From positions 744,001 through 808,000 of the forward strand of contig JAGYIV010000008.1 of the NCBI GenBank assembly GCA_018402345.1: a DNA stretch of 64,000 nucleotides. The letters run 5' to 3'. Position numbers and translations under genes: made by a program. This DNA is from Terrimicrobiaceae bacterium. Lineage in GTDB: Bacteria > Verrucomicrobiota > Verrucomicrobiia > Chthoniobacterales > Terrimicrobiaceae. Shown here piece by piece: positions 8,835 to 29,295 of this stretch. The first letter of the stretch is position 1; each line of letters starts with the position of its first letter. The notes below the pieces were generated by a model. The model was not told the DNA's origin. It searched no databases and saw only the letters and a program-made list of their open reading frames with translations.

Positions 8835-9933
8835 CAGTGTAGGGAAGAGAGGGTGACACGCTGTCGGGCGTTTGCGGGCCCATTTCCACGGACATCGGCT
8901 TGCCTCCCGCGGCTTTCAACGCCTGCGCCAGATCGACGACCCTGACCGCCTGGTCGCCGTAGGTTTTCCAATGGAATGACGGTGTCTTCAACTGGCTGAC
9001 CGCCGTCCATGTCGTGAAATCGGGGCTGGCCTCGGCGGTGCCGGCGGGCGGTTGAGCACTCCCCACGGGGATATCAAAGTTGTTGAGCACATGGAACAGC
9101 GTCGAGACGGCCGAAGGCGCGTCGGGCTGGGCGGGCAGGTTTTGAAGGAAGAACACCATGCGCACAAAACGGGAAGGAGGAGTGAAATCTCCGGGAAGCC
9201 CCACACCTCCGCCTCCCATGCCGAACGGCGACAACGTCAGCCCGCCCATGGTGGCATTCGCGGGGTAGTTGGCGGTGGCGTTGAGGTATGTCCTGAGGTT
9301 CGTGAGGTGCCATGGGAACTCTGGGGAATTTGTGAGCACGCGCACGGGATTGTCGTGGATTTTCAATTCCCCGCCGACCGGCTCGATCACGATGCAGGCG
9401 CCGCTGGCATCCTGGACCTTGTAATGCACATCGGGCACAGCCTTGAGAATCTCCAGCACCACAGGTTCCACCGCCACCGCGCCGATCTTCGCGCGCACAT
9501 CCGCCACACTGGCGCAGTTGGCGAGAATCCATGTGCCAAGTTGACCTGGCGACAGGGCCTTGGCGGCGGTCTCGGCGGCGGGGGGCGGGTATTGGGCGGA
9601 GCCGGGGAAGTAGAAGAGGCCTACATTCAGTCCCTTCTCGTTGACCCCATCGAGGATTTGATCAAGGAAGTCGCCCACGGTGGCTCCGAGAAATCCAAAC
9701 TGCGACGTGAACTTCAGCCCAGGGCCGTTCACTCCGGTGCCGGTGAATTCAGAGCCTGACGGCCAAATGGCGATTTTCGAGTCGAGCGGCATGCCGAACT
9801 CGAGCGTGCGGCCGACGACTACGCTACCGTCCTTCGCGGTGATCGCGCCACCGGTGCACGCCTGCAGGGAAAACGGATGAAATGACGCGCCGAGAAACGC
9901 CGCACATGCAAAAAGTGGAAGGGTCTTTTTCAT
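8827..9933 (-). CDS. Exported Ntn-hydrolase of the choloylglycine hydrolase / penicillin V acylase family
   Basis: The 368-residue protein has a signal peptide whose predicted cleavage (SLQA before CTGG) exposes Cys26 as the mature N-terminus, the nucleophile of this linear-amide C-N hydrolase family. Arg42 in VVGRTLEFG and the NEKGLNVGLFYFPG segment match the family. Members hydrolyse bile-salt amides, penicillin V, acyl-homoserine lactones or ceramide-like amides; in a free-living diderm the natural substrate is unknown. I used ATG 9933 (MKKTL) rather than the in-frame start 63 bp upstream because it begins the signal peptide. The protein should act in the periplasm. Confidence 0.85.
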   Translation of the reverse strand: MKKTLPLFACAAFLGASFHPFSLQACTGGAITAKDGSVVVGRTLEFGMPLDSKIAIWPSGSEFTGTGVNGPGLKFTSQFGFLGATVGDFLDQILDGVNEKGLNVGLFYFPGSAQYPPPAAETAAKALSPGQLGTWILANCASVADVRAKIGAVAVEPVVLEILKAVPDVHYKVQDASGACIVIEPVGGELKIHDNPVRVLTNSPEFPWHLTNLRTYLNATANYPANATMGGLTLSPFGMGGGGVGLPGDFTPPSRFVRMVFFLQNLPAQPDAPSAVSTLFHVLNNFDIPVGSAQPPAGTAEASPDFTTWTAVSQLKTPSFHWKTYGDQAVRVVDLAQALKAAGGKPMSVEMGPQTPDSVSPSLPYTVK

Positions 9934-10008
9934 AGGCCGGACCGAAGGAAACAGAATCACCCTCGAGGAGCAACCCCCGACCTGTTGCGACTGCAAGACT
10001 GCCGTGCT

Positions 10009-10944
10009 TCAGCGGCCCGCGGAGTGTTCAAGGAACCATTCGTAGGCGTCCTTGATTCCCTGCTCGAGTGGAATGCGCGGACTCCATCCCATCGCGCGAA
10101 TCCTGCCGATATCGAGGAGTTTTCTCGGGGTGCCATCGGGCTTCGACGAGTCGAACACGAGCTTCCCTTGGAACCCAACCACGCGGCATACCGTCTCGGC
10201 GAGTTCCCGGATGGTGAGGTCCTCGCCGCAGCCAATATTAACGATCTCGGACGTCTCATGGTGGCGGAGGAGGAAGAGGCAGGCGTCCGCAAGGTCGTCC
10301 GCATGCAGGAATTCGCGGCGGGGCGTGCCCGATCCCCACACGACAATCTCGCTCGAACCCGCCAGCTTTGCCTCGTGCGCCTTACGGATCAGCGCGGGCA
10401 GGACATGCGACGTGTGCAGGTCGAAATTGTCGCGCGGCCCGTAGAGATTTGTCGGCATCGCCGAGAGGAAGGCTTTTCCGTATTGCTTGGCGTAGGCTTG
10501 GCAGAGTTTGATGCCCGCTATCTTGGCGATCGCGTAAGCGTCGTTGGTGGGCTCCAGCGGCCCGGTCAGGAGCGAATCCTCATGGATCGGCTGCGGGGCG
10601 AGCTTGGGGTAGATGCAGGAACTGCCGAGGAAGAGCAATTTTTGAACACCGAAGTCGGCGGCTGCCTCGATCACGTTGTTCTGGATCGCGAGGTTTTCGA
10701 GGAGGAATTCCACGGGCTTCTCGGAGTTCGCGATGATTCCCCCGACGCGGGCGGCAGCGTCAACGACGACATCCAGACGCTCGGTTTCGAAAAACCGCCT
10801 CACCGCCGCGCGGTCCAGTAAATCCAATTCGCTCCGCGTGCGCACGAGGATGTTGGTGAATCCCTCGCGTTCCAGGCGGCGCACCATCGCACTGCCCACC
10901 ATGCCCCGGTGTCCTGCCACAAAAATTCTCGCGTTGGTATTCAT
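10009..10944 (-). CDS. fcl: GDP-L-fucose synthase
   Basis: The 311-residue protein is an extended SDR. It has the NADP-binding [10 protein letters not shown] at 11-20, SSCIYP at 108-113, the catalytic Y137-x3-K141 pair ([11 protein letters not shown]), and the family-specific [12 protein letters not shown] and [14 protein letters not shown] segments. It epimerises and reduces GDP-4-keto-6-deoxy-mannose to GDP-L-fucose for surface polysaccharide. The usual partner gmd is not in this window. Its length equals that of the Escherichia coli enzyme. The gene is monocistronic here, diverging from the exported protein at 11029. Confidence 0.93.
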
Positions 10945-11028
10945 CGAAATCGTCTTGGTAAAAAGGGTGAAGTTTGAGAAAGAGTGGATTCACTTGCAGG
11001 ACTCCAGCGGTTCCGCAAGAACAAGATC

Positions 11029-11421
11029 ATGAGTCGTTTCATTTTCCTTTCGCTGTTCGTGGCCTGCACCGCCCTGGGCGAATTGCCGCCCTCCGCCTAC
11101 GAGACGATGCAATCGGAAGCCCCCGAGCACCTCCAAATCCAAGTCCTTCGGGTCGATATCGAGCCGGGCGAAAAAGAATCCGCTCAGGAAATTCTGATCA
11201 TGGCTACCGTCGAAAAAGTCCTTCGCACCGCAAGCGGCGTGAAACCGGGCGATTTGATCAATATCTCCTACCAACTCGAAGACCGCCCGCCGGGATGGGT
11301 CGGCCCAGGGCAGGTTCCGATCCTCGCGCAAGGCGACACCCATGTCGCCTATCTCAAGAAACTCGAGAAGCCCGAAACCTACGCGCCCGCTGCCGGCGCC
11401 ATGAGCTTCCACAATTTCTGA
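11029..11421 (+). CDS. Small exported protein of unknown function
   Basis: The 130-residue product starts with a clear signal peptide (MSRFIFLSLFVACTALG, cleavage near residue 17-18). The rest is a compact beta-rich domain with AEILIMATVEKV-like strands and a GDLINISYQL segment, reminiscent of OB-fold-like exported proteins. I do not recognise the family. ATG 11029 is preferred over the ATG 45 bp upstream because it starts the signal peptide. Its TGA stop overlaps the likely CTG start of the following flavoprotein gene. Confidence 0.6.
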   Translation: MSRFIFLSLFVACTALGELPPSAYETMQSEAPEHLQIQVLRVDIEPGEKESAQEILIMATVEKVLRTASGVKPGDLINISYQLEDRPPGWVGPGQVPILAQGDTHVAYLKKLEKPETYAPAAGAMSFHNF

Positions 11422-12642
11422 GTGCCCCGCGACACATCGTGGTCGCCGGCGGCGGGGCGGCGGGGTTTTTCGGAGCCATCGCCGCCGCCGAGACCGATCC
11501 CCGGGCCACCGTCACGATTCTCGAAAAATCCCGCCATGTGCTCGCCAAGGTCCGCATCTCGGGCGGCGGACGCTGCAATGCCACCCACGCCTGCTTCGAT
11601 CCCCGCGAGCTTTCCCAGCGCTACCCGCGCGGCGGACGCGCCCTCATCGGCCCGTTCACGCGCTTCGGCCCCCGCGAGACCATCGAGTGGTTCCGCTTGC
11701 GCGGCGTGAATCTGAAAACCGAGGCCGACGGACGCATGTTCCCCGTCACCGACTCCTCTCAATCCATCATCGATTGCCTCCTCGACTCCTCGCGGAATGC
11801 CGGAGTCTCGATCCGCCTCCAGACCGGCCTGAACTTGATCGAGCGCCATCACGGCGGCGGATTCTCGCTGACGCTTTCCAGCGGCGAAATCCTCGCCGCC
11901 GATCGACTCCTGTGGGCCGCCGGCGGCTGCCGCGAGGAGGGCCATCCGCTCGTTTCCCTCGGCCACACACTCGTTCCTCCAGTGCCTTCGCTCTTCACCT
12001 TCCACATCGATTCGCCATGGCTCCGCGAGCTTCCCGGCGTGTCGGCGGATGTCCAAGTCTCAATTCCCGGCACCTCGCTGAAACAACGCGGACCGCTCTT
12101 GATCACCCACACCGGCGTGAGCGGACCAGCGGTTCTGCGTCTGTCCGCATGGGGCGCGAGGGACCTCCACGCCGCCGGCTACCGCTTTCCCCTCCGCATC
12201 GCCTGGCTGCCCGACATAAAGCCCGAAGCGCTCCTTCAAGAAATCCAGCGCCGCCGCGAGAGCGCAAGGCGTGCAAACCGTCTTGCGAGCCCGCTGGAAC
12301 CCCCTTCCAGCGCGCCTCTGGGAGCAGCTCGTGCTCCAAGCCGGCATCGCCCCGGACACCCAATGGACGCGTCTCGCCAAGCCAGAGGCGTTGAAACTCG
12401 TCTCGCTCCTCACCGCCACAGAACTCCCGGTGGATGGCAAAAGCATGAACAAGGAGGAGTTTGTCACCTGCGGTGGCATTCCCCTGCCGGAGGTCGATTT
12501 CAAAACCATGGAGAGCCGCATCGTCCCCGGCATCCACCTCGCCGGCGAAGCCCTCGACATCGACGGCATCACCGGCGGCTTCAACTTCCAAGCCGCCTGG
12601 ACCACCGGATGGTTGGCCGGGCAGGCGATGGCACGCTTATAG
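11418..12642 (+). pseudogene. HI0933/BaiN-like NAD(P)/FAD-dependent flavoprotein, interrupted by a frameshift
   Basis: The first part (frame of 11418) has the FAD-binding dinucleotide motif IVVAGGGAAGFFGAIAAAE and the family hallmark VRISGGGRCNATHA. It continues to about position 12258. The rest (WNPLPARLWEQL, TCGGIPLPEVDFKTMESR, GEALDIDGITGGFNFQAAW), typical of the C-terminus, is in the +1 frame from about 12262. One surplus base between 12258 and 12270 explains the break. Both halves keep all family motifs, so an assembly indel is likely. The start is uncertain: CTG 11418 overlapping the preceding TGA, or GTG 11439. Members are flavin oxidoreductases of poorly defined substrate. Confidence 0.8.
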
Positions 12643-12739
12643 CCCCGATTTTTGAAGGGAGTTGGGAAATCCCGAGTTCCTTGAGAAAGACTTTGTGAAT
12701 GCTTGGGGCGGCCGGGTTGCAGGAGGGAACTGCCCCCTT

Positions 12740-13469
12740 TCAAATATTGCTGCCGAGAAACGTGTGGATGCCGCACTCGCTTTTGTCGAAGCCGGTCCAG
12801 CGGCCGGCGCGTTCGCTTTCGCCGTCCGTGACGGGGCGGGTGCAGGGTTGGCAGCCGATGGAGCGGTAGCCTTGGGACGCGAGGGCGTTCACGGGGAGGT
12901 CGTGGGTTTTGATGTATTCCTGAACCTGATCGCGTGTCCAGGCGGCCATGGGATTGAGTTTGATGATGTAGAGGTCTCGGAGGACGTCGAAGTGGTAGAG
13001 TTCGACGATTTGGGTGCGTTCGCGGGTGTCGTTTTGCTGGCGGCGGAGTCCGGTGATCCAGACGTCGATCGTGGAGAGTTTTTTCTGGAGTGGAATGACC
13101 TTGCGAGAGGGAGCAACAGAGGTCGGGTTTGGATTTCCAGAGTTCCGGGCCGAGGTCGGCGGCTTGGTCGGCGACGGTTTGCTCGGGGTGGAGCGATTCG
13201 ATGGCGATGCCGAGGCGGGTTTCGATCTGTTTCTTGAGCGCGAGCGTCTCGGGAAAGAGGAGTCCGGTGTCGATGGTGAAGACCGGAAAGCGGAAGCCGT
13301 GGGTGGTGGCGGTGTGCATGGCGACAAGACCCGCGCCTTGGAAGCTGGTTCCAAATGCGGCCCGCTCGCCATAGGTCTCCCAGGCCCAGGCGAGGATGTC
13401 GCGGAGGGGTGCTGTCTCAAACTCCTCCGCTTTCCTCCGAACCATGTCGCGGTCGTGAAGCGATGGCAT
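12740..13469 (-). pseudogene. cysH: Phosphoadenylyl/adenylyl-sulfate reductase (CysH family), interrupted by a frameshift
   Basis: The 5' part from ATG 13469 has the nucleotide-binding GTSFQGAGLV (residues 40-49), FTIDTGLLFPET and a Cys118-Cys119 pair. Seven instead of six bases (13112-13106) then separate CC from the conserved RKV. The 3' part in the other frame has RKVIPLQKKL, WITGLRRQQND, LNPMAAWT and GCQPCTRPV. The CC plus CxxC ligands indicate the iron-sulfur, assimilatory type that reduces APS to sulfite. Dropping one base in the CCC run (minus strand, 13111-13109) restores a normal-length enzyme of about 242 residues. It lies convergent to the flavoprotein and downstream of transketolase on the same strand. 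Confidence 0.85.
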
Positions 13470-13517
13470 GGGGTTAGCGCGGGGCTTGCGCCCCGCATGG
13501 TTGTGCCGCGTGGCCCG

Positions 13518-15500
13518 TCAAAGCGATTTGGCGACCGCGACGACGTTTGCCGCTGTCATGCCGAGTTCCTGCATGACGATATTGCCTGGAGCGCTGAGGC
13601 CGAAGCGGTCGATGGCCACAGTCTTGCCGTCGAGGCCGACGTAGCGGAACCACGGATCGGAGACACCGGCTTCGATAGAGACGCGTTTGCGGCAGGCCGT
13701 CGGGAGCACGGATTCCTTGTAGTCCTGCGGTTGGCGCTCGAAGCGCTCGAAGCAGGGCATCGAGACGACGCGGGTTCCAGCGCCGAGTTCGGCGGCGGCA
13801 ACAATGGCGTGTTGGAGTTCGCTGCCCGAGGCGAGCAGGATGGTTTCAAGCGCGGCGGTTTCCTTTTTGGCGACGTAGCCGCCTTTCAACACGCCCTCGC
13901 GGCGCACGGAGACGGGGATATCGTTTTGCGTGGGCAGGTTTTGTCGCGAGAGGACCAGAAGCGTGGGGCCGTCGGTCTTCTGGAAGGCCGCAGCGAAGGC
14001 GCCAGCGGTTTCCTCGGGATCGGCCGGGCGAATGACATCGAGGCCTGGAATGGCGCGGAGGGCGGCAACGGTTTCCACCGGTTCGTGAGTTGGGCCGTCC
14101 TCGCCGACTCCGACGGAGTCGTGGGTGAAAATGTAGACGGCGGGCAGGTGCGAGAGCGCGGCGATGCGGATCGAGGGGCGACCGTAGTCGCTGAAGACGA
14201 GGAATGTCGCGCCGCTGGGACGGAAAATGCCGTCGTAGGCGAGTCCATTCATGATGCCGCACATGGCGTGTTCGCGGATGCCGAAGTGGATGTTCCGGCC
14301 ACCATGGTTCTCGCGGGTGAAGTCGCCGCCATCCTTGATGTAGTTGAGTGTCGAGCCGTAGAGGTCGGCGCTGCCCCCGACGAGAAGCGGCATGGCGGCG
14401 GCGACGGGTTGGAGCGCCTCGCTGCCCGCCTTGCGGGTGGCGATGGAGACCGAGGGATCGAATGGCGGGATCGCGGCGAGCAGGTCGGGCGTTTTGCCTG
14501 AAATGGCGTCATCGATTTCCTTGGCCAGGTCGGCATTTGCCGCACGCCAGGCCTGGTAGGTTTTGTCCCACTCCGCGTAGGCCGCTTGCAGGGTCGCCTT
14601 GTGCTTCTCGAAATAGGCGGCGGTTTCCGCAGAGACGTGGAAAAGCTCGTCGGGGAGCCCCATGGCCTTGCGGGCTTCGGCGGTGAACTTCACGCCTGCC
14701 TCGCCGTGCGCCTTGTTGGTGCCGCAAACCTCAGGAATTCCTTTTCCGATGAGGGTCTTGGCGATGATGAACTGCGGTTTGCCGCTCGTCGAGGCCTTGG
14801 CTTTGGCGAGCACGCCTGCCACGGCTTCCAGATTGTGGCCGTCCACCTGGTGGACCTCCCAACCGTAGGCGGCATAGCGCGCGGCGGTGTCCTCGCTCTG
14901 CGAGACCGGGGCCATAGCGTCGAGGGTGACGTTGTTGGAGTCGTAAATGAGGATCAGGTTGTCGAGGCCGAGGTGCCCGGCGAGGGCGCTGGCTTCCTGC
15001 GCGATGCCCTCCTGGAGGCATCCGTCACCGGCGAGGGCGATCACGTGGTGGTTGAAAATCTTGTGCACGGCGGTGTTGAAGCGCGCCTCGCTCATCTTGC
15101 CCGAAATGGCGAAGCCCACGGCATTCGCCACGCCTTGGCCAAGCGGGCCGGTGGTGGCCTCGACGCCCGGGGTTTCATGGAACTCGGGGTGTCCGGGAGT
15201 GATGCTGTGAAGTTGGCGGAAGGCCTTCACGTCATCCAGCGAAACGGCAAAGCCCGAGAGGTGCAGCCAAGAGTAGAGGAACATGCTGCCGTGGCCTGCG
15301 GAAAGAATGAACCGGTCGCGGTTCAACCAGCGGGGCTCGGCGGGATTGTAGGACATAGCCGAACCGAAGAGAACGGCTCCGATATCAGCGGATCCGAGTG
15401 GCAGGCCGAGGTGGCCGGATTTGCATTTGGTGATCGCGTCCATGGCGAGGCCGCGGGCGTCGCGGGCAGCCGTCTCGAGAGAGGAAAGGTCGATGCTCAT
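13518..15500 (-). CDS. tkt: Transketolase
   Basis: The 660-residue protein matches full-length bacterial transketolase. It has the N-terminal thiamine-diphosphate domain (SGHLGLPLG at 28-36, [28 protein letters not shown], the Mg/ThDP-binding GDGCLQEG), then the pyrimidine domain ([47 protein letters not shown]) and the C-terminal domain. It transfers two-carbon ketol units between pentose-pathway sugars in the cytoplasm. It lies 99 bp downstream of prfB on the same strand, with no obvious terminator in between. Confidence 0.96.
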
Positions 15501-15599
15501 AGGTCGTTTGTTTTAGAAAGCGGAAGAAAAGCCAGTGCTGACCGAGTTGGCAAGTTGCAAACCCGTCATGGGCTGCATCTATCCCAAGGTGCGGGCGGG

Positions 15600-16740
15600 C
15601 TATTCGTCGTCCTCGTCGCCAGAGGCGCCTTTTTTGTAGGTGAGTCCGCGAAGCTTGCCTTCGATGAAGGCATCGATGTCGCCATCCATGACCGCCTGGA
15701 TGTCGCCGGTTTTCACACCGGTGCGGAGGTCTTTGACCATCTGGTAGGGCTGGAAGACATAGCTGCGGATTTGGTTTCCCCAGGCCACGTCGCCCTTCTC
15801 ACCGTAATGGCGGTCGATTTCAGCGCGCTTTTTGTCCGTCTCGATCTGGTAAAGTTTCGCCTTCAACATCTGCATGGCCATTTCCCGGTTGCGGCCCTGG
15901 CTGCGCTCGGCCTGACAACCGACGACGATACCCGAGGGAATGTGGGTGAGGCGCACGGCGGTTTCGACCTTGTTCACGTTCTGGCCGCCCTTGCCGCCCG
16001 AGCGGAAGGTGTCGAGCTTGATGTCCGCCTCGTTCACCTCGATCGGAACGTCCTCGATCTCCGGCACGGCATCGACGCCCGCAAAGGACGTGTGGCGGCG
16101 TTTGTTCGAATCGAACGGCGAGATGCGGACCAAGCGGTGGACGCCGATTTCATTTTTGAGGTAGCCGTAGGCGTTTTCGCCGGTGACGCGGAGGGTGGCG
16201 GATTTGACGCCCGCCTCCTCGCCGAGTTGGATGTCTGTGATGGCGAATTGGAGGCCGTGGCGCTCCATCCAGCGTTGATACATGCGGAAGAGCATGTCGG
16301 CCCAGTCGCAGGACTCGGTGCCGCCCGCGCCGGCCTGAATGGAGAGGAACGCCGGGCAGTTGTCGTGTTCGCCCGAGAGGAGTGCGGCGATCTCGAACTT
16401 GTCGAGAGCCTTTTCGATGGAGTCGAGTTCGGAGAGCACCTCGGCGGCGGCGGCCGCGCGTTTGTCCTCCGGTTCCTCGAGGGAGAGTTCGCGAAGGACA
16501 CCGAGATCCTCCATGCGCGATTCGAGGGAGGTGAGCGGGTTGATTTTATTCCGGAGCGACGAGACTTCGGCGACGTCCTTCTGGGCGCGTTCGCGGTTGT
16601 CCCAGAAATCAGGTGCCGCCATGCGCGATTCGATTTCGGCCAGGCGGCGGGTCAGTGCGGGCAAGTCAAAGAAACCTCCGCATCGAGGCCAGGCGGCCTT
16701 TGATCGCGGAGGTATCCAAATTTTGTAGTTCCTCGGTCAT
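15600..16740 (-). CDS. prfB: Peptide chain release factor 2, with programmed +1 frameshift
   Basis: Translation starts at ATG 16740 ([17 protein letters not shown]) and runs 24 codons to CTT-TGA-C at 16671-16665, where the ribosome must slip +1. The second frame continues [16 protein letters not shown] to the stop at 15600, giving 379 residues. A Shine-Dalgarno-like CGGAGG lies just upstream of the slip site, as in E. coli. The RF2 stop-codon-recognition motif SPF ([11 protein letters not shown]) and the catalytic GGQ ([12 protein letters not shown]) are present. RF2 recognises UGA and UAA, and its own level is controlled by how often its in-frame UGA is read. The end is acidic (GDEDDE). Confidence 0.96.
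16665..16680 (-). other. prfB: Programmed +1 frameshift site of prfB
   Basis: On the minus strand the sequence reads CGGAGG-TTT-CTT-TGA-C. It combines an internal Shine-Dalgarno-like element, a slippery CTT codon and an in-frame UGA followed by C, the classical autoregulatory arrangement. Confidence 0.95.
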
Positions 16741-20107: not shown

Positions 20108-20553
20108 AAAGAGGCGCCGGACGTGGTCTCGGCAAGGATGCGGGATTGAGTGGCGGCCATTGTTTTGGCGGTGGCGGGGGTGGTGTCGTCGTGGCCGGAG
20201 AGGTGGAGGAACCCGTGGATGATATAGAGCGCGAGTTCCGTGGTCGTGGTGTGGGCGAACTCGGGGGCGCGGGTTGCGGCGACATGGGCACAGACGAGGA
20301 TTTCGCCGTAGGGGAAGGTAATGACATCTGTCGCGCCCGGGATGCCAAGAAAGTCGCGGTGGACGCGAGCCATGGCGGCGGTGCCGAGGATGGAAATGTC
20401 GACGGCCTCGAGCGAGGCGAGTGGGGCGTTGTGTTGTTCGGCGATGGCGAGGCAGCGCGGGAGGGCAGCGGCGGCGAGGCGCTCGAGGGCAGCGCGGTCG
20501 TAGGGGGTGGCCTTCGCACGGTGGGAAAACGAGAGGCGCGGCGGGGTGCTCAA
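20104..20553 (-). CDS. ybeY: Endoribonuclease YbeY (rRNA maturation factor)
   Basis: The 149-residue metalloprotein has the UPF0054 core: VHRDFLGIPGATDVITFPYG and the zinc motif HGFLHLSGHDD. His113 and His117 are present. The third ligand position (+10), His in E. coli, is Asp123 here, a variant I also associate with Bacteroidetes homologues. YbeY processes the 3' end of 16S rRNA and helps ribosome quality control. It is 5 bp downstream of the 7TM-HD gene, which follows phoH, a conserved gene order. Confidence 0.9.
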   Translation of the reverse strand: MSTPPRLSFSHRAKATPYDRAALERLAAAALPRCLAIAEQHNAPLASLEAVDISILGTAAMARVHRDFLGIPGATDVITFPYGEILVCAHVAATRAPEFAHTTTTELALYIIHGFLHLSGHDDTTPATAKTMAATQSRILAETTSGASF

Positions 20554-20558
20554 GGTGG

Positions 20559-22145
20559 TCAGGCGGCGGATTTTTCCTCGGGCCGTCTGCCTTGCGGGGT
20601 GTCGCGCTGGTCGCGGCGGGGGTAGGCGATGCGGGCGTGGAGCATGTTGACGAGGGTAAAGCGGAAGCTTTCGGCGGCGCGCCAGAGTTCGGCGATGGTC
20701 AAGGGGGCATCGTCGAGTTGGCCGCTTTCGATGCGGTCCCTGACGAGATCGCGGACGAGGTCGTCGATGCGTTGCGGAGTGGGTCGCTCGAGGCTGCGGG
20801 AGGCGCTTTCGATGGAGTCGGCGAGACTCACGAGGGCCGCCTCCTTGGTTTGGGGGCGCGGGCCGGGGTAGCGGAAGCTTTCCTCGCTGACGTCGGGGAT
20901 ATCGTCCGCTCGCATGTTCATGATCTTGCCGCCGAGGCGGGCGTCCTCCTGTTGCTGGAGGGCGCGCTGGAGGAAATATGAGACGGTCGAGGTGCCGTGG
21001 TGCTGGCGAATGACCTCGACGATCTCATGGTTGAGCTTGTGCTTGAGGGCGAGGTCGATGCCTTCCTTCACATGGGCGATGATGATAAGGGCGCTCATGG
21101 TCGGGGTGAGGTCGTCGTGGGGATTTTCGCCGTGGGGGATGTTTTCGGTGAAATACTGGGGTTTCACGAGTTTCCCGATGTCATGGAAATACGAGCCGAC
21201 GCGGCAGATGGTGGGATTGGCTCCGACGGTCTCGGCGGCCGCCTCCGAGAGGTTGGCGACGGCGAGGCTGTGGTGGTAGGTGCCCGGCGCCTCCAGGCTG
21301 AGACGCTTCAGGAGGGGGTGGTTGAGGTCCGTCATTTCCAGCCAGGAAATATCGGTGGTGATTTTGAACATGTGCTCGAGCATCGGGAGAATGCCGCTGA
21401 CGAACACGGCGGTGCCGATGCCGGTGGCGATGGCCGCGAAGCTTTGCCAACCGATCATTTGCCAATTTGTCTGCGAGGGGAGTTCCCAGACGACCGGGCC
21501 GATCTGGCCGAAGGTGGCGGCGAGAATCCAGGTGGCAAGCCCCACATAGACGCCCGCGCGGACTAGTCGGCTCCGGCGGCGGACTTGCAGGGTGACAAAG
21601 ACGGCGATGAAACCGGTGATGAGGGAAATGACAAGGAACACCGGATCGATGCGGCCGACGAGGAGCGAGCCCCAGAGGCTGGCGAAGACAGCCGCGTAGA
21701 TGCCGTGGTTTTTACCGAGGAGGACGGAAAGGGTGAGCGGGGCGAAGGCGTAGGGGATGAGCAGGGGGGCGAGCTGGAGGTCGATATTGCCTGCGGCCGC
21801 CTGGCTGAGAATGACTTTGATCATGGCCAGTTGCCCCAGCAGCACGCCGAGGAGGACGCCAAGGCGGGCGTTGCTGTGCATGGTCTGTGGATGGTTGATC
21901 CACAATTGCGCGACGGCGGTGACGAAGATCAGGAGGCAGAGGAGGAATTTTTTGGCGGGTTCCTCCTGCACGCCGGTGAAGATGAGCGCCGCGATGCCGA
22001 GGACGAAGGCGGCGAGAAGAATGCCTCGCATGATCCAGCCGCACTCGAGCCCCTCAAGGAACTCGTTGGTTTCAACCTGCCTGCGGCGTTTCCCACAATC
22101 CATGCCACGCCCGACAAGCTTCCAGCGTTTGAAAAAATCGAACAT
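20559..22145 (-). CDS. 7TM-HD membrane phosphohydrolase (PgpH-like)
   Basis: The 528-residue protein has a cytoplasmic N-terminus, about seven hydrophobic helices (roughly residues 38-270) and a C-terminal HD domain: APGTYHHSLAVANLSEAA, GSYFHDIGKLVKP, IIIAHVKEGIDLA, RQHHGTSTV and LADSIESASRSL, with the metal-binding His and Asp residues intact. PgpH relatives hydrolyse cyclic di-AMP. This one lacks the large extracellular domain found in front of the helices in Listeria PgpH, so it begins directly at the membrane bundle. It lies in the phoH-HD-ybeY order seen in many bacteria. The substrate is inferred from homology. Confidence 0.88.
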   Translation of the reverse strand: MFDFFKRWKLVGRGMDCGKRRRQVETNEFLEGLECGWIMRGILLAAFVLGIAALIFTGVQEEPAKKFLLCLLIFVTAVAQLWINHPQTMHSNARLGVLLGVLLGQLAMIKVILSQAAAGNIDLQLAPLLIPYAFAPLTLSVLLGKNHGIYAAVFASLWGSLLVGRIDPVFLVISLITGFIAVFVTLQVRRRSRLVRAGVYVGLATWILAATFGQIGPVVWELPSQTNWQMIGWQSFAAIATGIGTAVFVSGILPMLEHMFKITTDISWLEMTDLNHPLLKRLSLEAPGTYHHSLAVANLSEAAAETVGANPTICRVGSYFHDIGKLVKPQYFTENIPHGENPHDDLTPTMSALIIIAHVKEGIDLALKHKLNHEIVEVIRQHHGTSTVSYFLQRALQQQEDARLGGKIMNMRADDIPDVSEESFRYPGPRPQTKEAALVSLADSIESASRSLERPTPQRIDDLVRDLVRDRIESGQLDDAPLTIAELWRAAESFRFTLVNMLHARIAYPRRDQRDTPQGRRPEEKSAA

Positions 22146-22200
22146 TAATTGCGGAGTGCGCTGCGGTCCTTGGCTGAACTCTTGGATCGGGTGAGATTAA

Positions 22201-23172
22201 TCATATCCTGCTTTCGCGGGAGCCACGGTGATCCTTGTAGGCAAGAATCACCGCTTGGACCAAAGGATGACGCACAACATCCTTCTCTGTAAAGAAGTGG
22301 ATGCCAATTTCGGAAACATTTCTTAGGGCTGCAATGGCTTCCACAAGGCCGCTGAGCTTGTTTTTCGGGAGGTCGATCTGGGTGACATCGCCGGTGACCA
22401 CGCACCGCGAGCCCACGCCGAGGCGGGTGAGGAACATGAACATCTGCTCCGCGGTGGTGTTTTGGGCCTCGTCGAGGATGACGAACGAGTTGCTGAGGGT
22501 GCGGCCGCGCATGTAGGCGAGCGGGGCGATCTCAATCACGTGGCGATCCATCAGCTTTTGAAGTTCCTCGGGGTCGAGGAGGTCGTGAAGGGCGTCGTAG
22601 AGGGGGCGCAGGTAGGGGAGGATTTTTTCTTGGAGGTCGCCGGGGAGGAAGCCGAGGGCCTCGCCCGCTTCCACGGCCGGGCGGGTGAGGATGATGCGCT
22701 TCACCTTGTCTTGCTTGAGGGCGGCGACGGCGCAGGCGACGGCGAGGTAGGTCTTCCCGGTGCCCGCGGGGCCGATGCCGAAGGTGATGTCGTGGGTGTT
22801 GATGCGTTGGAGGTAGGATTTCTGACCCGAGGTGCGGGGCACGACCGGCGGCTTGCGAGGGGAGCAGAGGATGCGGGTGTCGAGCAGGCTGGTGAGGGGT
22901 TCGGCGGAGGCATTGCCCGCGGCGGCGTCGAGGGCCTGATGGAATTCCTGGTGGTGGATGGTGATGCCGCGCTTCCGGGCCTCCTCGAGTTGGGCGAAGA
23001 CATGGCGCGCACGGTCGAGATTCGCCTGGTCGCCTTCGAGGCGAATCCAACCGTCGCGGGCTGTGGCGCGGAGGGACAGGCGTGACTCGAGATCGTGGAG
23101 GAACTTCGGATCGCCTCCGTAGAGGGACTGGGCCACGCGGGCGTTTTCAAATTCCAGAGTAATGGTGTCCAT
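22201..23172 (-). CDS. PhoH family ATPase (PhoH-like)
   Basis: The 323-residue protein has a small N-terminal KH-like domain (to about residue 100) and a PhoH ATPase domain. Walker A is [13 protein letters not shown], Walker B is [11 protein letters not shown], and [19 protein letters not shown] and [11 protein letters not shown] are family signatures. PhoH2/YbeZ proteins are RNA-linked ATPases that work with YbeY in ribosome maturation, and ybeY is two genes downstream in the same operon. The spacing to the upstream exported-protein gene is 22 bp. Confidence 0.93.
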
Positions 23173-23194
23173 GCCTTGCGGGGCCGCGCCTGTG

Positions 23195-23617
23195 TTATTT
23201 GTAGGCGTAGACCAACGCCCAGCCGGTGCGCTCCTCGGGGGACTTAAGGACGGTCACAATGGCGTAGTAGCTGCCGGTGCGTTCGGGCACGACGCGCACG
23301 GCGGTCATGCGTCCGGGTTTGAGGGACTCTCCATTCACAAGTTTCCCCTTCGAGTCATAGATATTGATCGATAGGACTGCGCGTTTGACGTCGGTGCCGA
23401 GGCAAAACCAGTATTCGTTGCCTTTGAAAAGCTGGGCCTGCACGGCTTGGCGATCCTTGACGCCGAGGTCGCCGCCCCAGGCGTCTTCGCGCACGCTGAA
23501 GCCTAGCTTCACGTAGGGGTGGGCGGCCTCGTAGGCGAAGGAGAGGGCGTCATCCACATAGGCCCATGCGGTGCCGGCGAGGAGGACGGACAACAGGATG
23601 GCGAGGGATTTTTTCAT
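23195..23617 (-). CDS. Small exported protein of unknown function
   Basis: The 140-residue product has a signal peptide (MKKSLAILLSVLLAGTAWA) and a beta-rich domain. Lines such as FKGNEYWFCLGTD, LSINIYDSKGKLV and PERTGSYYAIVTVL look like a periplasmic beta-sandwich with ligand-binding character, similar in pattern to pre-peptidase-like C-terminal domains. I cannot name the family. It sits 8 bp after another exported-protein gene and directly before phoH, and is probably one operon with both. ATG 23617 starts the signal peptide. Confidence 0.7.
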   Translation of the reverse strand: MKKSLAILLSVLLAGTAWAYVDDALSFAYEAAHPYVKLGFSVREDAWGGDLGVKDRQAVQAQLFKGNEYWFCLGTDVKRAVLSINIYDSKGKLVNGESLKPGRMTAVRVVPERTGSYYAIVTVLKSPEERTGWALVYAYK

Positions 23618-23625
23618 GGGTTGGC

Positions 23626-24444
23626 TCAAGCTCCCTTAAGGGTGATGGCATCGACGGTTTCGCCCGTCAATTTGTGGATGCGCTTGACGTTGTCGAGGGG
23701 GATCGTGCTGCCCTCGTCGTTGCCGATGAGGGGGCGGATGGATTTGAGCAATTTGCGGATGCGCTGGACGAGAGGTTCGTTCGAGAGGCGGCGACTCGAG
23801 AGGTTCGAGAGCTTGTCGGAGAAGAAATCAAGGAGAGCCGGTTGGTGGAGGAGTTCGGCGGAGTCCGGAGAGTAGCTTTTGGAGACGATGGAAGTAAGGA
23901 CATGGGTGCCACGAATCCAGCCTCCCACGCTGACGAGTTGGGCGAGGTCGTCGTCGCCAAGTTCCTGCATCGCGCCCTTCACATCCTGGAGGGCGCCGTC
24001 GAATTCGCGGCGGACTGCCAGCCACTGCTTCACTTCGGCCTTGTCGGTGATGCTTTTGCTGCGTTCGAGCACGGCTTTTTCGACATTGATTGCCTTGGAG
24101 AGGGTGAGCACGCGGCGGCCGATCTCCTTGACCTTCTCGGAATCCTCGGCTTCGACGGCGATGAAGCCTTCGGCGATGACGGTGCCGAGGAGGAGGGCGA
24201 CCTGGGCGCGGTTGCCGGTTTGTTTGCCCAGCGAGTCGCTCATTTCGCCGCGCCAGTTTGGGTTGCCAAGCTTGTCGAGGACGACGAAGACCTCGCTCGG
24301 GACTGGAACGACGACATCGTCGATGGATTGTGCGGGGAAGGCGGAAAGATCGATCGACTCGGGTGCGGGATCGGCCCGGAGGACGGTGGTGGTGAGTGCC
24401 GTGAGGGCGACGATTGCCGCGAACGGGTGAAGCATGTTCGGCAT
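23626..24444 (-). CDS. Exported helical protein of unknown function
   Basis: The 272-residue product has a signal peptide (MPNMLHPFAAIVALTALTTT, cleavage near residue 24). The rest is largely alpha-helical: FVVLDKLGNPNWRGEMSD, VALLLGTVIAEGFIAVEAED and IGRRVLTLSKAINVEKAVL suggest a helical bundle, and the C-terminus has a run of charged helices. I do not recognise it. It is the first gene of the leftward operon leading into phoH and ybeY, and diverges from the heptose kinase gene across a 59-bp spacer. Function unknown; periplasmic location inferred. Confidence 0.7.
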   Translation of the reverse strand: MPNMLHPFAAIVALTALTTTVLRADPAPESIDLSAFPAQSIDDVVVPVPSEVFVVLDKLGNPNWRGEMSDSLGKQTGNRAQVALLLGTVIAEGFIAVEAEDSEKVKEIGRRVLTLSKAINVEKAVLERSKSITDKAEVKQWLAVRREFDGALQDVKGAMQELGDDDLAQLVSVGGWIRGTHVLTSIVSKSYSPDSAELLHQPALLDFFSDKLSNLSSRRLSNEPLVQRIRKLLKSIRPLIGNDEGSTIPLDNVKRIHKLTGETVDAITLKGA

Positions 24445-24503
24445 TTTAAAAATTTGAGCTTTGTTGGCCGGCAGGAGCCGGATAATTTTTCTGAGAATTT
24501 GGA

Positions 24504-25508
24504 ATGAAACCGGAGCGATTACAACATCTTCTTGAGCGGGCATCGGAGTGCAGGTTGCTTGTGGTGGGGGATGTGATGCTCGACGAGTTTGTCTGGGGGC
24601 GGGTGTCGCGGATTTCGCCCGAGGCACCGGTGCCGGTGGTCGAGGTGGTCGAGGAAACCAGCTACCCCGGAGGAGCGGCGAATGTCGCGAGGAACCTGCG
24701 GCCGTTTTGTGCCGGGGTCGAATTGTGTGGACTGCTCGGGGAGGATGCAGCGGCGGGGCGCTTGAGGGGGTTGCTTGAGGAGGAGGGCATCGCCACGGGT
24801 GCGCTGGTTGCGGAACCGGGCCGAGCAACGATCTTGAAAACACGGATTATTGCTCGGCAACAACAGGTTGTGCGCGTTGATCGCGAGCCCTCGAATGGCG
24901 TATCCAAGGAAATCCTCGACCGTGCGTGCGGGGTGGTCGAGGCAGCGTTGGCCGATGTGGATGCGGTGATCGTTGAGGATTATGGGAAAGGGTTTTTGGG
25001 GCAGGAGATGAAAAACCGCCTTGTCGCGCTGGCGCGGGCCGCCGGGAAATACATCGCCGCCGATCCGAATCCGTCGAATCCGCTGGATTGGACGGGCGTG
25101 GATTTGTTGAAGCCAAACCGCTCGGAGGCGTTTGCGATGGCCGGGCGGAGGGATTCCGGAGCGTTGGAGCATCCGCTCAAGGACGACGCTCTTTTCGAGG
25201 TCGGGCGCGGGCTTTTGGAAAAATGGAGCCTGCCTGCCGTGCTTGTAACGCTCGGCGAGCACGGGATGATGTTGTTTCAACGGGACGCGGAGCCATACCA
25301 CACGCCCACGAGGGCGCGGGAGGTTTTCGATGTGTCGGGTGCCGGGGACACGGCGATTGCGCTGCACACCTTGGCAGTTTGCGCCGGAGCGACACCCGCC
25401 GAGGCGGCGGAAATCTCAAACCAGGCAAGTGGCGTGGTGGTCGCCAAGCTCGGCACGGCCACGCTGACCGCCGCCGAGTTGCGCGAGGCGTTTCTGAAAA
25501 ATGGCTGA
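24504..25508 (+). CDS. hldE: D-glycero-beta-D-manno-heptose-7-phosphate kinase
   Basis: The 334-residue PfkB-family sugar kinase corresponds to the N-terminal half of bifunctional HldE (RfaE domain I). Motifs are LLVVGDVMLDEFVWGRVSRI, the family GGAANVARNL and the C-terminal anion-hole FDVSGAGDTAIA with the catalytic Asp. It phosphorylates heptose 7-phosphate at C1 on the way to ADP-heptose for LPS inner core. The nucleotidyltransferase half is not fused here. Its end overlaps gmhB by 8 bp, so the next pathway step is co-translated. Confidence 0.9.
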   Translation: MKPERLQHLLERASECRLLVVGDVMLDEFVWGRVSRISPEAPVPVVEVVEETSYPGGAANVARNLRPFCAGVELCGLLGEDAAAGRLRGLLEEEGIATGALVAEPGRATILKTRIIARQQQVVRVDREPSNGVSKEILDRACGVVEAALADVDAVIVEDYGKGFLGQEMKNRLVALARAAGKYIAADPNPSNPLDWTGVDLLKPNRSEAFAMAGRRDSGALEHPLKDDALFEVGRGLLEKWSLPAVLVTLGEHGMMLFQRDAEPYHTPTRAREVFDVSGAGDTAIALHTLAVCAGATPAEAAEISNQASGVVVAKLGTATLTAAELREAFLKNG

Positions 25509-26025
25509 GCGGCGCGCGGTTTTCCTCGATCGCGACGGGACGCTCATGGAGGAGGTCCACTACTGCAACGATCCCAGGCGCGTGCGGGTTTTCCCCGGAG
25601 TCGCCGGTGCGCTGGCAAGATTCCGCCATGCAGGTTGGCTGGTGGTCATCGTGACTAACCAAAGCGGGTTGGCCACAGGAAAAATTTCGCCAGCCCAATA
25701 CGACGCTGTCCACGCGGAATTGATGAGACAGCTCCAGGGGCAGGTGGATGCGGTGTATTTCTGCGCGGACCATCCGCAATCCCCCACCCCACGGCGCAAA
25801 CCCGGCAGCGGCATGTTGCTCGAGGCGGCGGCCGAGCACGGCATCGACCTCTCGCGAAGTTGGATGATTGGCGACAAGGATGTGGATGTGGCCTGCGGGC
25901 GCGGGGCTGGCTGCCGCACGATTCTGGTGCGGACGGGTTACGGCGCTGGCATGGGCGATACGGGGGTGGATTTTGTGTTCGATGATGTCGTGGCGGCCTC
26001 GGATTTGATCCTCGCGGGGCGGTAG
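25501..26025 (+). CDS. gmhB: D-glycero-beta-D-manno-heptose 1,7-bisphosphate 7-phosphatase
   Basis: The 174-residue HAD-superfamily phosphatase has the DxD nucleophile motif (FLDRDGTLM, D10 and D12), VTNQSGLATG, RKPGSGM and the acidic GDKDVDVACG. It removes the C7 phosphate from heptose bisphosphate made by the upstream kinase. The zinc loop of E. coli GmhB, which has Cys-x-His then Cys-x-Cys before RKP, is reduced here to CADHPQSPTPRRKP with one Cys and one His, so zinc may be absent. It overlaps hldE by 8 bp. Confidence 0.87.
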   Translation: MAERRAVFLDRDGTLMEEVHYCNDPRRVRVFPGVAGALARFRHAGWLVVIVTNQSGLATGKISPAQYDAVHAELMRQLQGQVDAVYFCADHPQSPTPRRKPGSGMLLEAAAEHGIDLSRSWMIGDKDVDVACGRGAGCRTILVRTGYGAGMGDTGVDFVFDDVVAASDLILAGR

Positions 26026-26085
26026 CCCACTTCTTGCGGATTCTTGCGCACGGCTCCTGCTGGTGCCAATGTGCCCGCCTGCGGA

Positions 26086-28449
26086 ATGTTTGAAATCAAG
26101 GAAAAGCCGAAAATGGTCGAGCGGGCCGTGCTCATTGGAACGTATCTCCGGCCCGAGGGCAGGAGCGAGGCCGAGAGCCTGCTTGAGGAATTGGCGGATC
26201 TCGTCGACACGCTCGGGATTCCGGTTGTGGGGCGCGAGTTGGTCCACCACAGGGAAAACCACGCGCGGCATCTGGTCGGATCGGGCAAGGCCGAGGAGGT
26301 CGCGCAGCGGGCAAAGGCGCTGGAGGCGGATGTGTTGATTTTCGACAACGAGCTGACCCCCTCGCAGCAGCGGAACTGGGAAAAACTCTCGGGGGTGCTC
26401 GTGATCGACCGGCAGGAGGTGATCCTGGACATCTTCGCCAAGCGCGCGCAGACCCGCGAGGCGAGGCTGCAAGTCGACCTCGCGCGCATGGAGTATTCGC
26501 TCCCGCGGCTCGTGCGGGCGTGGTCGCACTTGGGAAAACAAGGCGGAGGAATCGGCGCCAAGGGCGAGGGCGAATCCCAACTCGAGCAGGACAAACGCAA
26601 AATCCGCGGGCAAATCGATCGCCTCAAGCGCGACCTCGAGGCCGTCAAGCGCCAACGGGCCACCCAGCGGAAGGATCGCAAGCGCACGCCCGTGCCGAAC
26701 GCCGCGATCGTGGGCTACACGAATGCGGGCAAGTCCTCGCTATTGCGTGCCCTCACTGGCGCCGACGTGCTGGTCGAGGACAAGCTCTTTGCCACGCTGG
26801 ACACGACCACGCGCAAGATCGCCCTCCCGAACAACCAACCCCTGCTGCTGACCGACACGGTTGGTTTTGTGAGGAACCTGCCCCACGGGCTGGTGGAGGC
26901 CTTCAATGCCACGCTTGAAGAGGCTGTGATGGCGGATTTTCTCATCCATGTGCTCGATGTGAGCCAACCCGAGGTCATGGCGTTTTACGAGACGACACAT
27001 TCTGTGCTTGAGGAACTCGGGGCGGATTCGCAGCGGACGCTTGTGGTGTTCAACAAAATCGACCGGCCGTGCGATCCCGCGACCTTGGCGGTGGTGCGCG
27101 AGCGGTTTCCCGATGCGGCATTCGTCTCCGTGCAGACCGGCGAGGGCATGCCGGACCTCGTCTCGCGGATCAGCGAGTTGGTGGCGGATGATCTTGTGAC
27201 CATGGAATTGAGAATCCCCCAATCCCGCGCCGATCTGGTTGCTCGACTCTACCGCGAAGCCGATATCCGCCACACGGCTTACGAGGGGAGTGATGTGCTC
27301 CTAAGAGCCCGCGTGTCGCCCCGCGCCGCTGCTGAGTTCAAGGAGTTCGATATGCTGAGTCACAAGCCGCTAAAGCCCTTCCGATCCGGAGAAATCTGGC
27401 CCGATGACCAGGGGGTCCATATCAACGCCCACAGTGGCGGTATCCTTTTCCACGAAGGGGTCTATTACTGGTTCGGCGAGCACAAGATCGAGGGGGATGC
27501 CGGCAACGTGGCTCATGTCGGTGTCGGTGTTTACTCATCGAGTGACCTCTGCAATTGGAAAAACGAAGGGATCGCTCTCCGTGTGTCGGAAAATCCCGCA
27601 AGTCCGCTCCACAAGGGGTGCATCATCGAGCGGCCCAAGGTCCTGTTCAACGAGAAGACAGGAAAATTCGTCATGTGGTTCCACCATGAACTCGAGGGAC
27701 ACGGATACCTCGCCGCCCTGAGTGGTGTGGCGGTGGCGGATGAGGCTGCCGGGCCATACACCTATCTTGAAAGCTTCCGGCCAAATGCAGGTGTCTGGCC
27801 TTTGAACTTCCCGGAACATCTCAAAGAGCCCCTGGGCGATGAGGACAGGCAGAAACTCGCGGCTACTCCGATGCCCGGGAACATGGTGCCCGACTGGGCG
27901 CGTGACATGCTGGTGCGCCGGGATTTCGAGGGCGGCCAGATGGCCAGGGACATGACCTTGTTTCAGGATGACGATGGCAGGGCCTACCACGTTTATGCAT
28001 CGGAGGAAAACGCGACGCTGCATCTGTCTCTGCTCAGTGCGGATTTTCTCAAGCCTGCGGGCAACTATGTCCGCATCTTCCCGCTTGGGTTCAACGAGGC
28101 ACCCGCGATATTCAAGCGCAATGGCAGGTATTTTTTGATGACTTCCGGCTGCACCGGGTGGGCGCCAAATGCGGCCCGGCTTGCCTGTGCGGATGATATC
28201 CTGGGGCCTTGGACAAGCCTGGGCAATCCGGTCAGAGGCACCGTGGAGCAAGTGGAGTCGACCTTCGACTCGCAATCGACTTTCGTGCTTCCCGTGCAGG
28301 GAAAGGGCGATGCGTTTGTGTTCATGGGCGACCGGTGGATGCCTGAAAATGCCATCGATGGACGCTATATCTGGCTGCCTGTCCGATTCGACAGCAGCGG
28401 GACACCTTTTCTCGAGTGGAAGGACGGGTGGGACCTTGACGCGCTTTGA
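26086..28449 (+). CDS. hflX: GTPase HflX fused in frame to a family 43 glycoside hydrolase domain
   Basis: The single 787-residue frame has two unrelated parts. Residues 1-422 are HflX, a ribosome-associated GTPase: N-domain, coiled coil, Walker A GYTNAGKSS (210-218), DTVGF (257-261) and NKID (323-326), ending with the usual HflX C-terminal LLRARVSPRAAAEF. Residues 423-787 are a GH43-type beta-propeller: GVHINAHSGGILFHEGVYYW, IERPKVLFNEKTGKFVMW, RDMTLFQDDDGRAYHVYASE, EAPAIFKRNGRYFLMTSG and RYIWLPVRF. There is no signal peptide. An AAGGAG six bases before ATG 27352 suggests that the hydrolase was, or still is, translated on its own. The split may be hidden by a lost stop or an indel. I chose ATG 26086 over the TTG upstream. 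Confidence 0.8.
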   Translation: MFEIKEKPKMVERAVLIGTYLRPEGRSEAESLLEELADLVDTLGIPVVGRELVHHRENHARHLVGSGKAEEVAQRAKALEADVLIFDNELTPSQQRNWEKLSGVLVIDRQEVILDIFAKRAQTREARLQVDLARMEYSLPRLVRAWSHLGKQGGGIGAKGEGESQLEQDKRKIRGQIDRLKRDLEAVKRQRATQRKDRKRTPVPNAAIVGYTNAGKSSLLRALTGADVLVEDKLFATLDTTTRKIALPNNQPLLLTDTVGFVRNLPHGLVEAFNATLEEAVMADFLIHVLDVSQPEVMAFYETTHSVLEELGADSQRTLVVFNKIDRPCDPATLAVVRERFPDAAFVSVQTGEGMPDLVSRISELVADDLVTMELRIPQSRADLVARLYREADIRHTAYEGSDVLLRARVSPRAAAEFKEFDMLSHKPLKPFRSGEIWPDDQGVHINAHSGGILFHEGVYYWFGEHKIEGDAGNVAHVGVGVYSSSDLCNWKNEGIALRVSENPASPLHKGCIIERPKVLFNEKTGKFVMWFHHELEGHGYLAALSGVAVADEAAGPYTYLESFRPNAGVWPLNFPEHLKEPLGDEDRQKLAATPMPGNMVPDWARDMLVRRDFEGGQMARDMTLFQDDDGRAYHVYASEENATLHLSLLSADFLKPAGNYVRIFPLGFNEAPAIFKRNGRYFLMTSGCTGWAPNAARLACADDILGPWTSLGNPVRGTVEQVESTFDSQSTFVLPVQGKGDAFVFMGDRWMPENAIDGRYIWLPVRFDSSGTPFLEWKDGWDLDAL
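27340..27354 (+). promoter_or_regulatory. Internal ribosome binding site and start for the GH43 part
   Basis: A perfect AAGGAG (27340-27345), a 6-nt spacer and ATG (27352) lie exactly at the HflX/GH43 border, in the same frame. A TGA in the +1 frame overlaps just after this ATG (27356-27358), the pattern of two overlapping genes. Confidence 0.55.
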
Positions 28450-28530
28450 TTACATGCCGGATTTTTTGTGGGGCTGACCATCGGGCAGACGGTTTTTTCT
28501 GTCTCGCCGTTTCACGTTCGGGGCGGTTTC

Positions 28531-29295
28531 ATGGTGGGGATGAAATTGATTTCATGGAATGTAAATGGCATCCGGTCGGTCTTAACGAAGGGCTTTGCGG
28601 ATTGGTTGGAGCGGGTTGACGCCGATGTGGTGTGCCTCCAGGAAACCAAGGCGCGTCCCGAGCAGGTGCCGCACGACTTTGCGGGGTATGAGGTGGTGTG
28701 GAACCCAGCGGTGCGGCCGGGGTATTCAGGCACGGCGATCCTGTCGCGGAAAAAGCCGAAATCCACCACGCTCGGGTTCGGGCGCGCGGAGCACGACCAG
28801 GAGGGCCGCGTGATCACGGCGGACTTCGGGGATTTTTTTCTCGTGAATATCTACACGCCCAACTCCAAGCGCGAACTGAGTAGGCTCGACTACCGGACCC
28901 GCGAGTGGACTCCGGCATTTGTGGATCATCTGGAGACCCTTGCAAAAAAGAAACCAGTGGTGTTTTGCGGGGACATGAATGTAGCCCACAAGGAGGTCGA
29001 CCTCGCCCGCCCGCGCGAAAACACCAGGAATGCGGGGTTCACGATCGAGGAGCGGGAGGCATTCGACAGGGTTCTCGAGGCCGGGTTTGTGGACACGTTC
29101 CGGCTCTTCGAACAGGGGACCGGACATTACACTTGGTGGAGCTACCAGAATGGCGCGCGGGAACGGAATATCGGGTGGCGGATCGACTACTTCTGTGTCA
29201 CGGAGGGGATCGTTGACGAAGTGCAATCCGCTTTTATCCAGCCTGAAACGCCGGGAAGCGACCACTGCCCTGTGGGAATTGTGCTAAAAGGGTGA
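28531..29295 (+). CDS. xth: Exodeoxyribonuclease III
   Basis: The 254-residue AP endonuclease/exonuclease has KLISWNVNGIRS, the catalytic Glu in CLQETKA, VNIYTPNSKRELSRLDYR, FCGDMNVAHKEVDLARP, the GWRIDYF segment and the C-terminal GSDHCPVGI. It cleaves abasic sites and degrades 3' ends during base-excision repair. The start is ATG 28531, behind GGGGCGG; ATG 28540 (MKLISW) is an equally family-like alternative three codons later. It reads in the same direction as the GH43 part but is 81 bp away. Confidence 0.94.
   Translation: MVGMKLISWNVNGIRSVLTKGFADWLERVDADVVCLQETKARPEQVPHDFAGYEVVWNPAVRPGYSGTAILSRKKPKSTTLGFGRAEHDQEGRVITADFGDFFLVNIYTPNSKRELSRLDYRTREWTPAFVDHLETLAKKKPVVFCGDMNVAHKEVDLARPRENTRNAGFTIEEREAFDRVLEAGFVDTFRLFEQGTGHYTWWSYQNGARERNIGWRIDYFCVTEGIVDEVQSAFIQPETPGSDHCPVGIVLKG

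Follow-up and report, generated by a model that had tools for sequence, protein, structure and literature searches.

HflX is a widespread housekeeping GTPase that splits ribosomes and serves in ribosome rescue. Its C-terminal domain matters for the splitting (PMC4770234). Subfamily 24 of glycoside hydrolase family 43 (GH43_24), to which exo-beta-1,3-galactanases such as Pc1,3Gal43A belong, is without the usual catalytic Asp; in Pc1,3Gal43A, Glu102 recognizes the C-4 hydroxyl, Glu208 is the acid and Gln263 is the base (PMC7939473). Here we describe a stretch of 64,000 nucleotides from a Terrimicrobiaceae bacterium (the window) in which an HflX and a GH43_24 enzyme share one reading frame.

An initial annotation had described an HflX frame that continues without a stop into a GH43 hydrolase at positions 26086–28449, and had offered a recent gene fusion, a dual-product gene or a hidden indel as the cause. 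Translation of the + strand confirmed a single stop-free frame of 787 codons, with HflX at residues 1–421 and GH43 at residues 423–787, matching TIGR03156 and PF04616, respectively. The AAGGAG-N6-ATG reported at the border was also found, as was the TGA overlapping it, where the +1 frame meets its first stop. The fused frame occupies an operon-like position, after a GmhB-like gene and before xth. By HflX, the nearest member of the genus is a sister species (G005), with about 91% protein identity, which served as the reference for the following features:

24504–25508, + strand: PfkB-family kinase gene, upstream of hflX in a region collinear with the sister
25501–26025, + strand: GmhB-like HAD phosphatase gene, upstream of hflX in the same collinear region
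26086–27350, + strand: hflX (TIGR03156, E = 1e-129; domains); homology to the sister ends at 27350
27340–27345, + strand: AAGGAG, encoding Lys-Glu in hflX and separated from ATG 27352 by six bases; the sister has AAGTCC
27351–28493, + strand: putative insert of 1143 bp, found where the sister has 32 bp (blastn)
27352–28449, + strand: GH43 subfamily 24-like predicted exo-beta-1,3-galactanase, 365 codons plus TGA (6EUG match; catalytic residues), with its own ATG in the hflX frame
27356–27358, + strand: TGA in the +1 frame, within the insert, which would end HflX only with a one-base shift
28450–28539, + strand: intergenic stretch, homologous from 28494 on to the hflX–xth spacer of the sister
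28540–29295, + strand: xth, exodeoxyribonuclease III (TIGR00633, E = 7e-95), the neighbour of hflX in G005

A Pfam domain search of the HflX half found GTP-bdg_N, GTP-bdg_M, MMR_HSR1 and HflX_C, all present and in order, and the match to the HflX equivalog, at 432 bits, lay above the cut-off of 217. The GTP-binding motifs GYTNAGKSS, DTVGF and NKID were intact in the translation, the last two being located by pattern at 257 and 323. Judged by sequence, neither half is a broken gene, as both domains are complete. A longer open reading frame from TTG 26044 (801 aa) was considered an unlikely start, since the HflX of the relatives begins at the same MFEIK sequence. The tail of HflX is variable within the genus, differing in length and sequence and ending 3–9 residues past the same conserved Phe. 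The fused protein is the only HflX found in this genome, where the two other matches were weak general GTPase hits. Some members of the genus carry a second, more distant HflX (42–46% identical; G004:C22:13709-14938, G015:C52:54680-55921 and G003:C34:44858-45883, the last of which appears as two pieces); no such second copy was found by a search of the window's genome.

The GH43 half matched PF04616 with E = 1.6e-16. Its best solved relative was PDB entry 6EUG (E = 4e-123), of which residues 27–374 aligned to query residues 8–363, and the next were other GH43_24 galactanases (3vsf, 7bys). Glu93 (ERPKV), Glu249 (NEAPA) and Gln308 (SQST) were invariant in 23 aligned sequences, that of the window included, and were paired with the published catalytic roles by motif, not by structure. 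These matches identify the GH43 half as a predicted subfamily 24 exo-beta-1,3-galactanase with all three essential residues. At 27433–27435, the near-invariant Gly of the GH43_24 INAHGGG motif is replaced by Ser (INAHSGG). The GH43 half has no signal peptide, whereas a crude hydrophobicity test detected a hydrophobic leader in 95 of 118 relatives; lacking a leader peptide, the galactanase should be cytosolic, like a minority of its relatives. Contig 6 of this genome carries several GH2 and GH43 genes (G000:C6:314-95745), a likely glycan-use region.

The sister genome retains the site in a form that lacks the galactanase. Using blastn, window positions 20126–27350 aligned to positions 9028–16256 of G005 contig 39 with 80.9% identity, and positions 28494–28631 aligned to 16289–16426 with 82% identity. 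The second alignment spans only 138 bases because contig 39 (16,427 bases) ends soon past the junction. Between these flanks lie 1143 bases in the window and 32 in G005, the 32 comprising the last eight hflX codons, the TAG stop and the opening bases of the short spacer that precedes xth. In G005, hflX has its own stop, xth follows directly and GH43 is absent. The 1143 bases of the window consist of the GH43 gene and 44 bases past its stop, and the left alignment breaks one base ahead of the GH43 ATG. Because of this alignment of the site, the fused frame appears to have arisen by an insertion plus a small deletion that took out the hflX stop. The recent gene fusion first proposed for the locus is thus strongly supported: a close relative has the same flanks and lacks the insert. 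The match in frame is unsurprising, since one third of such joins fall in frame. Neither a target-site duplication nor mobile-element ends were recognised at the insert.

The initial annotation had asked for the same junction in related genomes, and held that two plain adjacent genes there would count against a fusion. Plain hflX genes were indeed found, but GH43 never adjoined them, so that this test does not apply as it was worded. In every genus member where the hflX end could be read, the gene closes with a stop of its own and is followed by varied genes. A loss of the stop between old neighbours was rejected, since no relative has GH43 next to hflX. The HflX–GH43 fusion was absent from the 118 GH43_24 relatives examined, and from 39 relatives, the other genomes of the order (213), the phylum sample (387) and 80 GTDB loci. 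With strict thresholds, and counting the window's own genome, GH43_24 matched in 7 genomes of the 213 from the order and in 50 of the 387 that form the phylum sample. The open frames of all GH43 matches in these two sets except that of the window reached at most 691 aa; no second fusion is present there, as no other open frame is long enough to hold HflX too. Three of the 80 GTDB loci had open frames of more than 787 aa, which contained GH88, GH16 or DUF6528 domains and no HflX. The architecture was thus not seen kept in several lineages, as would be expected of a conserved, selected fusion.

As to where the gene came from, base composition was uninformative, with a GC content of 58% in the GH43 part, 59% in xth and 63% in hflX. 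Descent from the GH43 copy of another genus member (G008) was rejected, since the two copies are widely separated in the tree, and a plasmid donor was set aside because the relevant records gave only partial matches (66–70%). The window itself falls in Verrucomicrobiota: G563, a genome from its class, encodes a GH43 protein identical to one of a named Verrucomicrobia MAG (L113 and L031). The best identity to any GH43 relative is 65%, and the window sequence groups with other Verrucomicrobiota sequences, with weak tree support. Given this placement and the low best identity, the donor was probably an unsampled Verrucomicrobiota genome.

Taken together, we consider it likely that a GH43_24 insertion specific to this lineage followed the split from the sister species, and that the fused frame is translated as an HflX–galactanase chimera. 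The galactanase gene would have entered between hflX and xth, removing the last few, variable residues of HflX and its stop codon, and would by chance have been in the same frame, joined to HflX through its own N-terminus of roughly 12 residues. We infer that the transcript is translated through as one 787-residue protein, in which HflX would still split ribosomes and carry a cytosolic galactanase along; splitting is expected to persist because the C-terminal tail is variable and this is the sole HflX here. Comparison with G005 gave 7 window-specific changes versus 18 G005-specific ones, indicating no relaxed constraint on the fused HflX, although part of this HflX evolution may predate the insertion. 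Being the only HflX in the genome and evolving no faster than that of the sister, HflX has probably kept its function in the chimera, and the fusion itself is probably neutral. On the other hand, the insertion and chimera are seen in a single genome, the best GH43 relative reaches just 65% identity, the right flank aligns over 138 bases only, and an attachment of 365 residues could disturb the C-terminal domain on which splitting depends.

It is possible, though we find it doubtful, that the gene has two products, the chimera and a free cytosolic galactanase started at ATG 27352. This ATG is preceded by AAGGAG with a six-base spacer, coincides with the start Met of signal-less GH43_24 relatives (e.g., L032, L043, L046 and L109) and lies one base inside the insert. 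However, the AAGGAG is formed by hflX codons within the stretch alignable to the sister, and Shine-Dalgarno-like motifs are not enriched at the starts of this genome. Start-site statistics were collected from 344 kb (the window and 14 further stretches of the same genome), with starts called crudely as the first ATG within 25 codons of a stop. Of 2127 internal in-frame ATGs, 5 (about 0.2%) had AAGGAG 4–10 bases upstream, and of 167 clear starts none had it; AGGAG preceded a single one of these 167. The frequency of AGGAG was 0.6% at clear starts versus 1.1% at internal ATGs. The spacing, while unusual by chance, therefore means little. The organism looks Shine-Dalgarno-scarce in this sample, and some Verrucomicrobiota have been described as such (PMC10783764). 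No promoter-like site was found near the junction on the + strand. Of the dual-product proposal, the motif and its spacing stand, while their value as evidence is weakened: being hflX coding sequence in a genome with no such enrichment, the AAGGAG gives internal initiation little support, and while a free second product is possible, the motif does not point to it.

We regard it as unlikely that an indel or assembly error hides two coupled genes, with HflX truly ending at the +1-frame TGA 27356. This stop does overlap the GH43 ATG; with a one-base change anywhere from 27345 to about 27370 the two would be separate genes, and the resulting HflX of about 423 aa would be normal for the genus (424–430 in relatives). 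Against this, homology to HflX runs in frame up to 27350 and that to GH43 does so from about codon 6 onwards, and positions 27323–27410 contain no homopolymer of four or more bases. Furthermore, the 7.2 kb alignment to G005 contains no uncompensated frameshift inside genes, all differences in length being three-base, compensating or between genes. The TGA itself falls in inserted DNA, where an early stop in either of the other frames is not rare.

Still less probable, in our judgement, is a two-headed working protein that combines a ribosome-rescue GTPase with a cytosolic galactanase and is accompanied by free galactanase from the internal start. Least credible is a selected fusion whose role would be to couple ribosome rescue with the breakdown of galactan, be it through tethering, co-regulation or the like: both halves are intact, but the fusion occurs in one genome only, none of the papers searched joins HflX, fusion and glycoside hydrolase, and we know of no link between HflX and galactanase activities.

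The locus seems to record a single, recent accident of insertion, and not a novel class of protein. It is a fresh example, in one genome, of a known type of event, gene fusion by insertion, and gives no pointer to a new mechanism. It does offer a clean case in which a single insertion apparently added an unrelated domain to a widespread housekeeping GTPase and in which the sister species still shows the state before the insertion, and it could be used to examine if a large passenger at the C-terminus is tolerated by HflX. Compared to the GTPase HflX (TIGR03156), the chimera shares all domains and motifs over the full length, but its last few residues and stop are replaced by the GH43 enzyme. 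With the GH43_24 exo-beta-1,3-galactanases (Pc1,3Gal43A, Ct1,3Gal43A and the BT3683 type; PDB 6EUG/6EUI, 3VSF, 7BYV) it has the whole catalytic domain and the Glu/Glu/Gln residues in common; it differs in standing behind HflX in one frame and in lacking a signal peptide. GH43_24 also occurs in other long frames, with a metallophosphoesterase (L114:1480-3552, − strand), with GH88 and GH16 (L091:744-3812), with GH16 (L063:3410-5866) and with DUF6528 (L055:1656-5036). These multidomain proteins (metallophosphoesterase–GH43, GH88–GH43–GH16, GH43–GH16 and DUF6528–GH43) resemble the window in placing GH43_24 within a longer frame, but their partners are mostly glycan enzymes or exported-looking proteins, and none is a cytosolic ribosomal GTPase.
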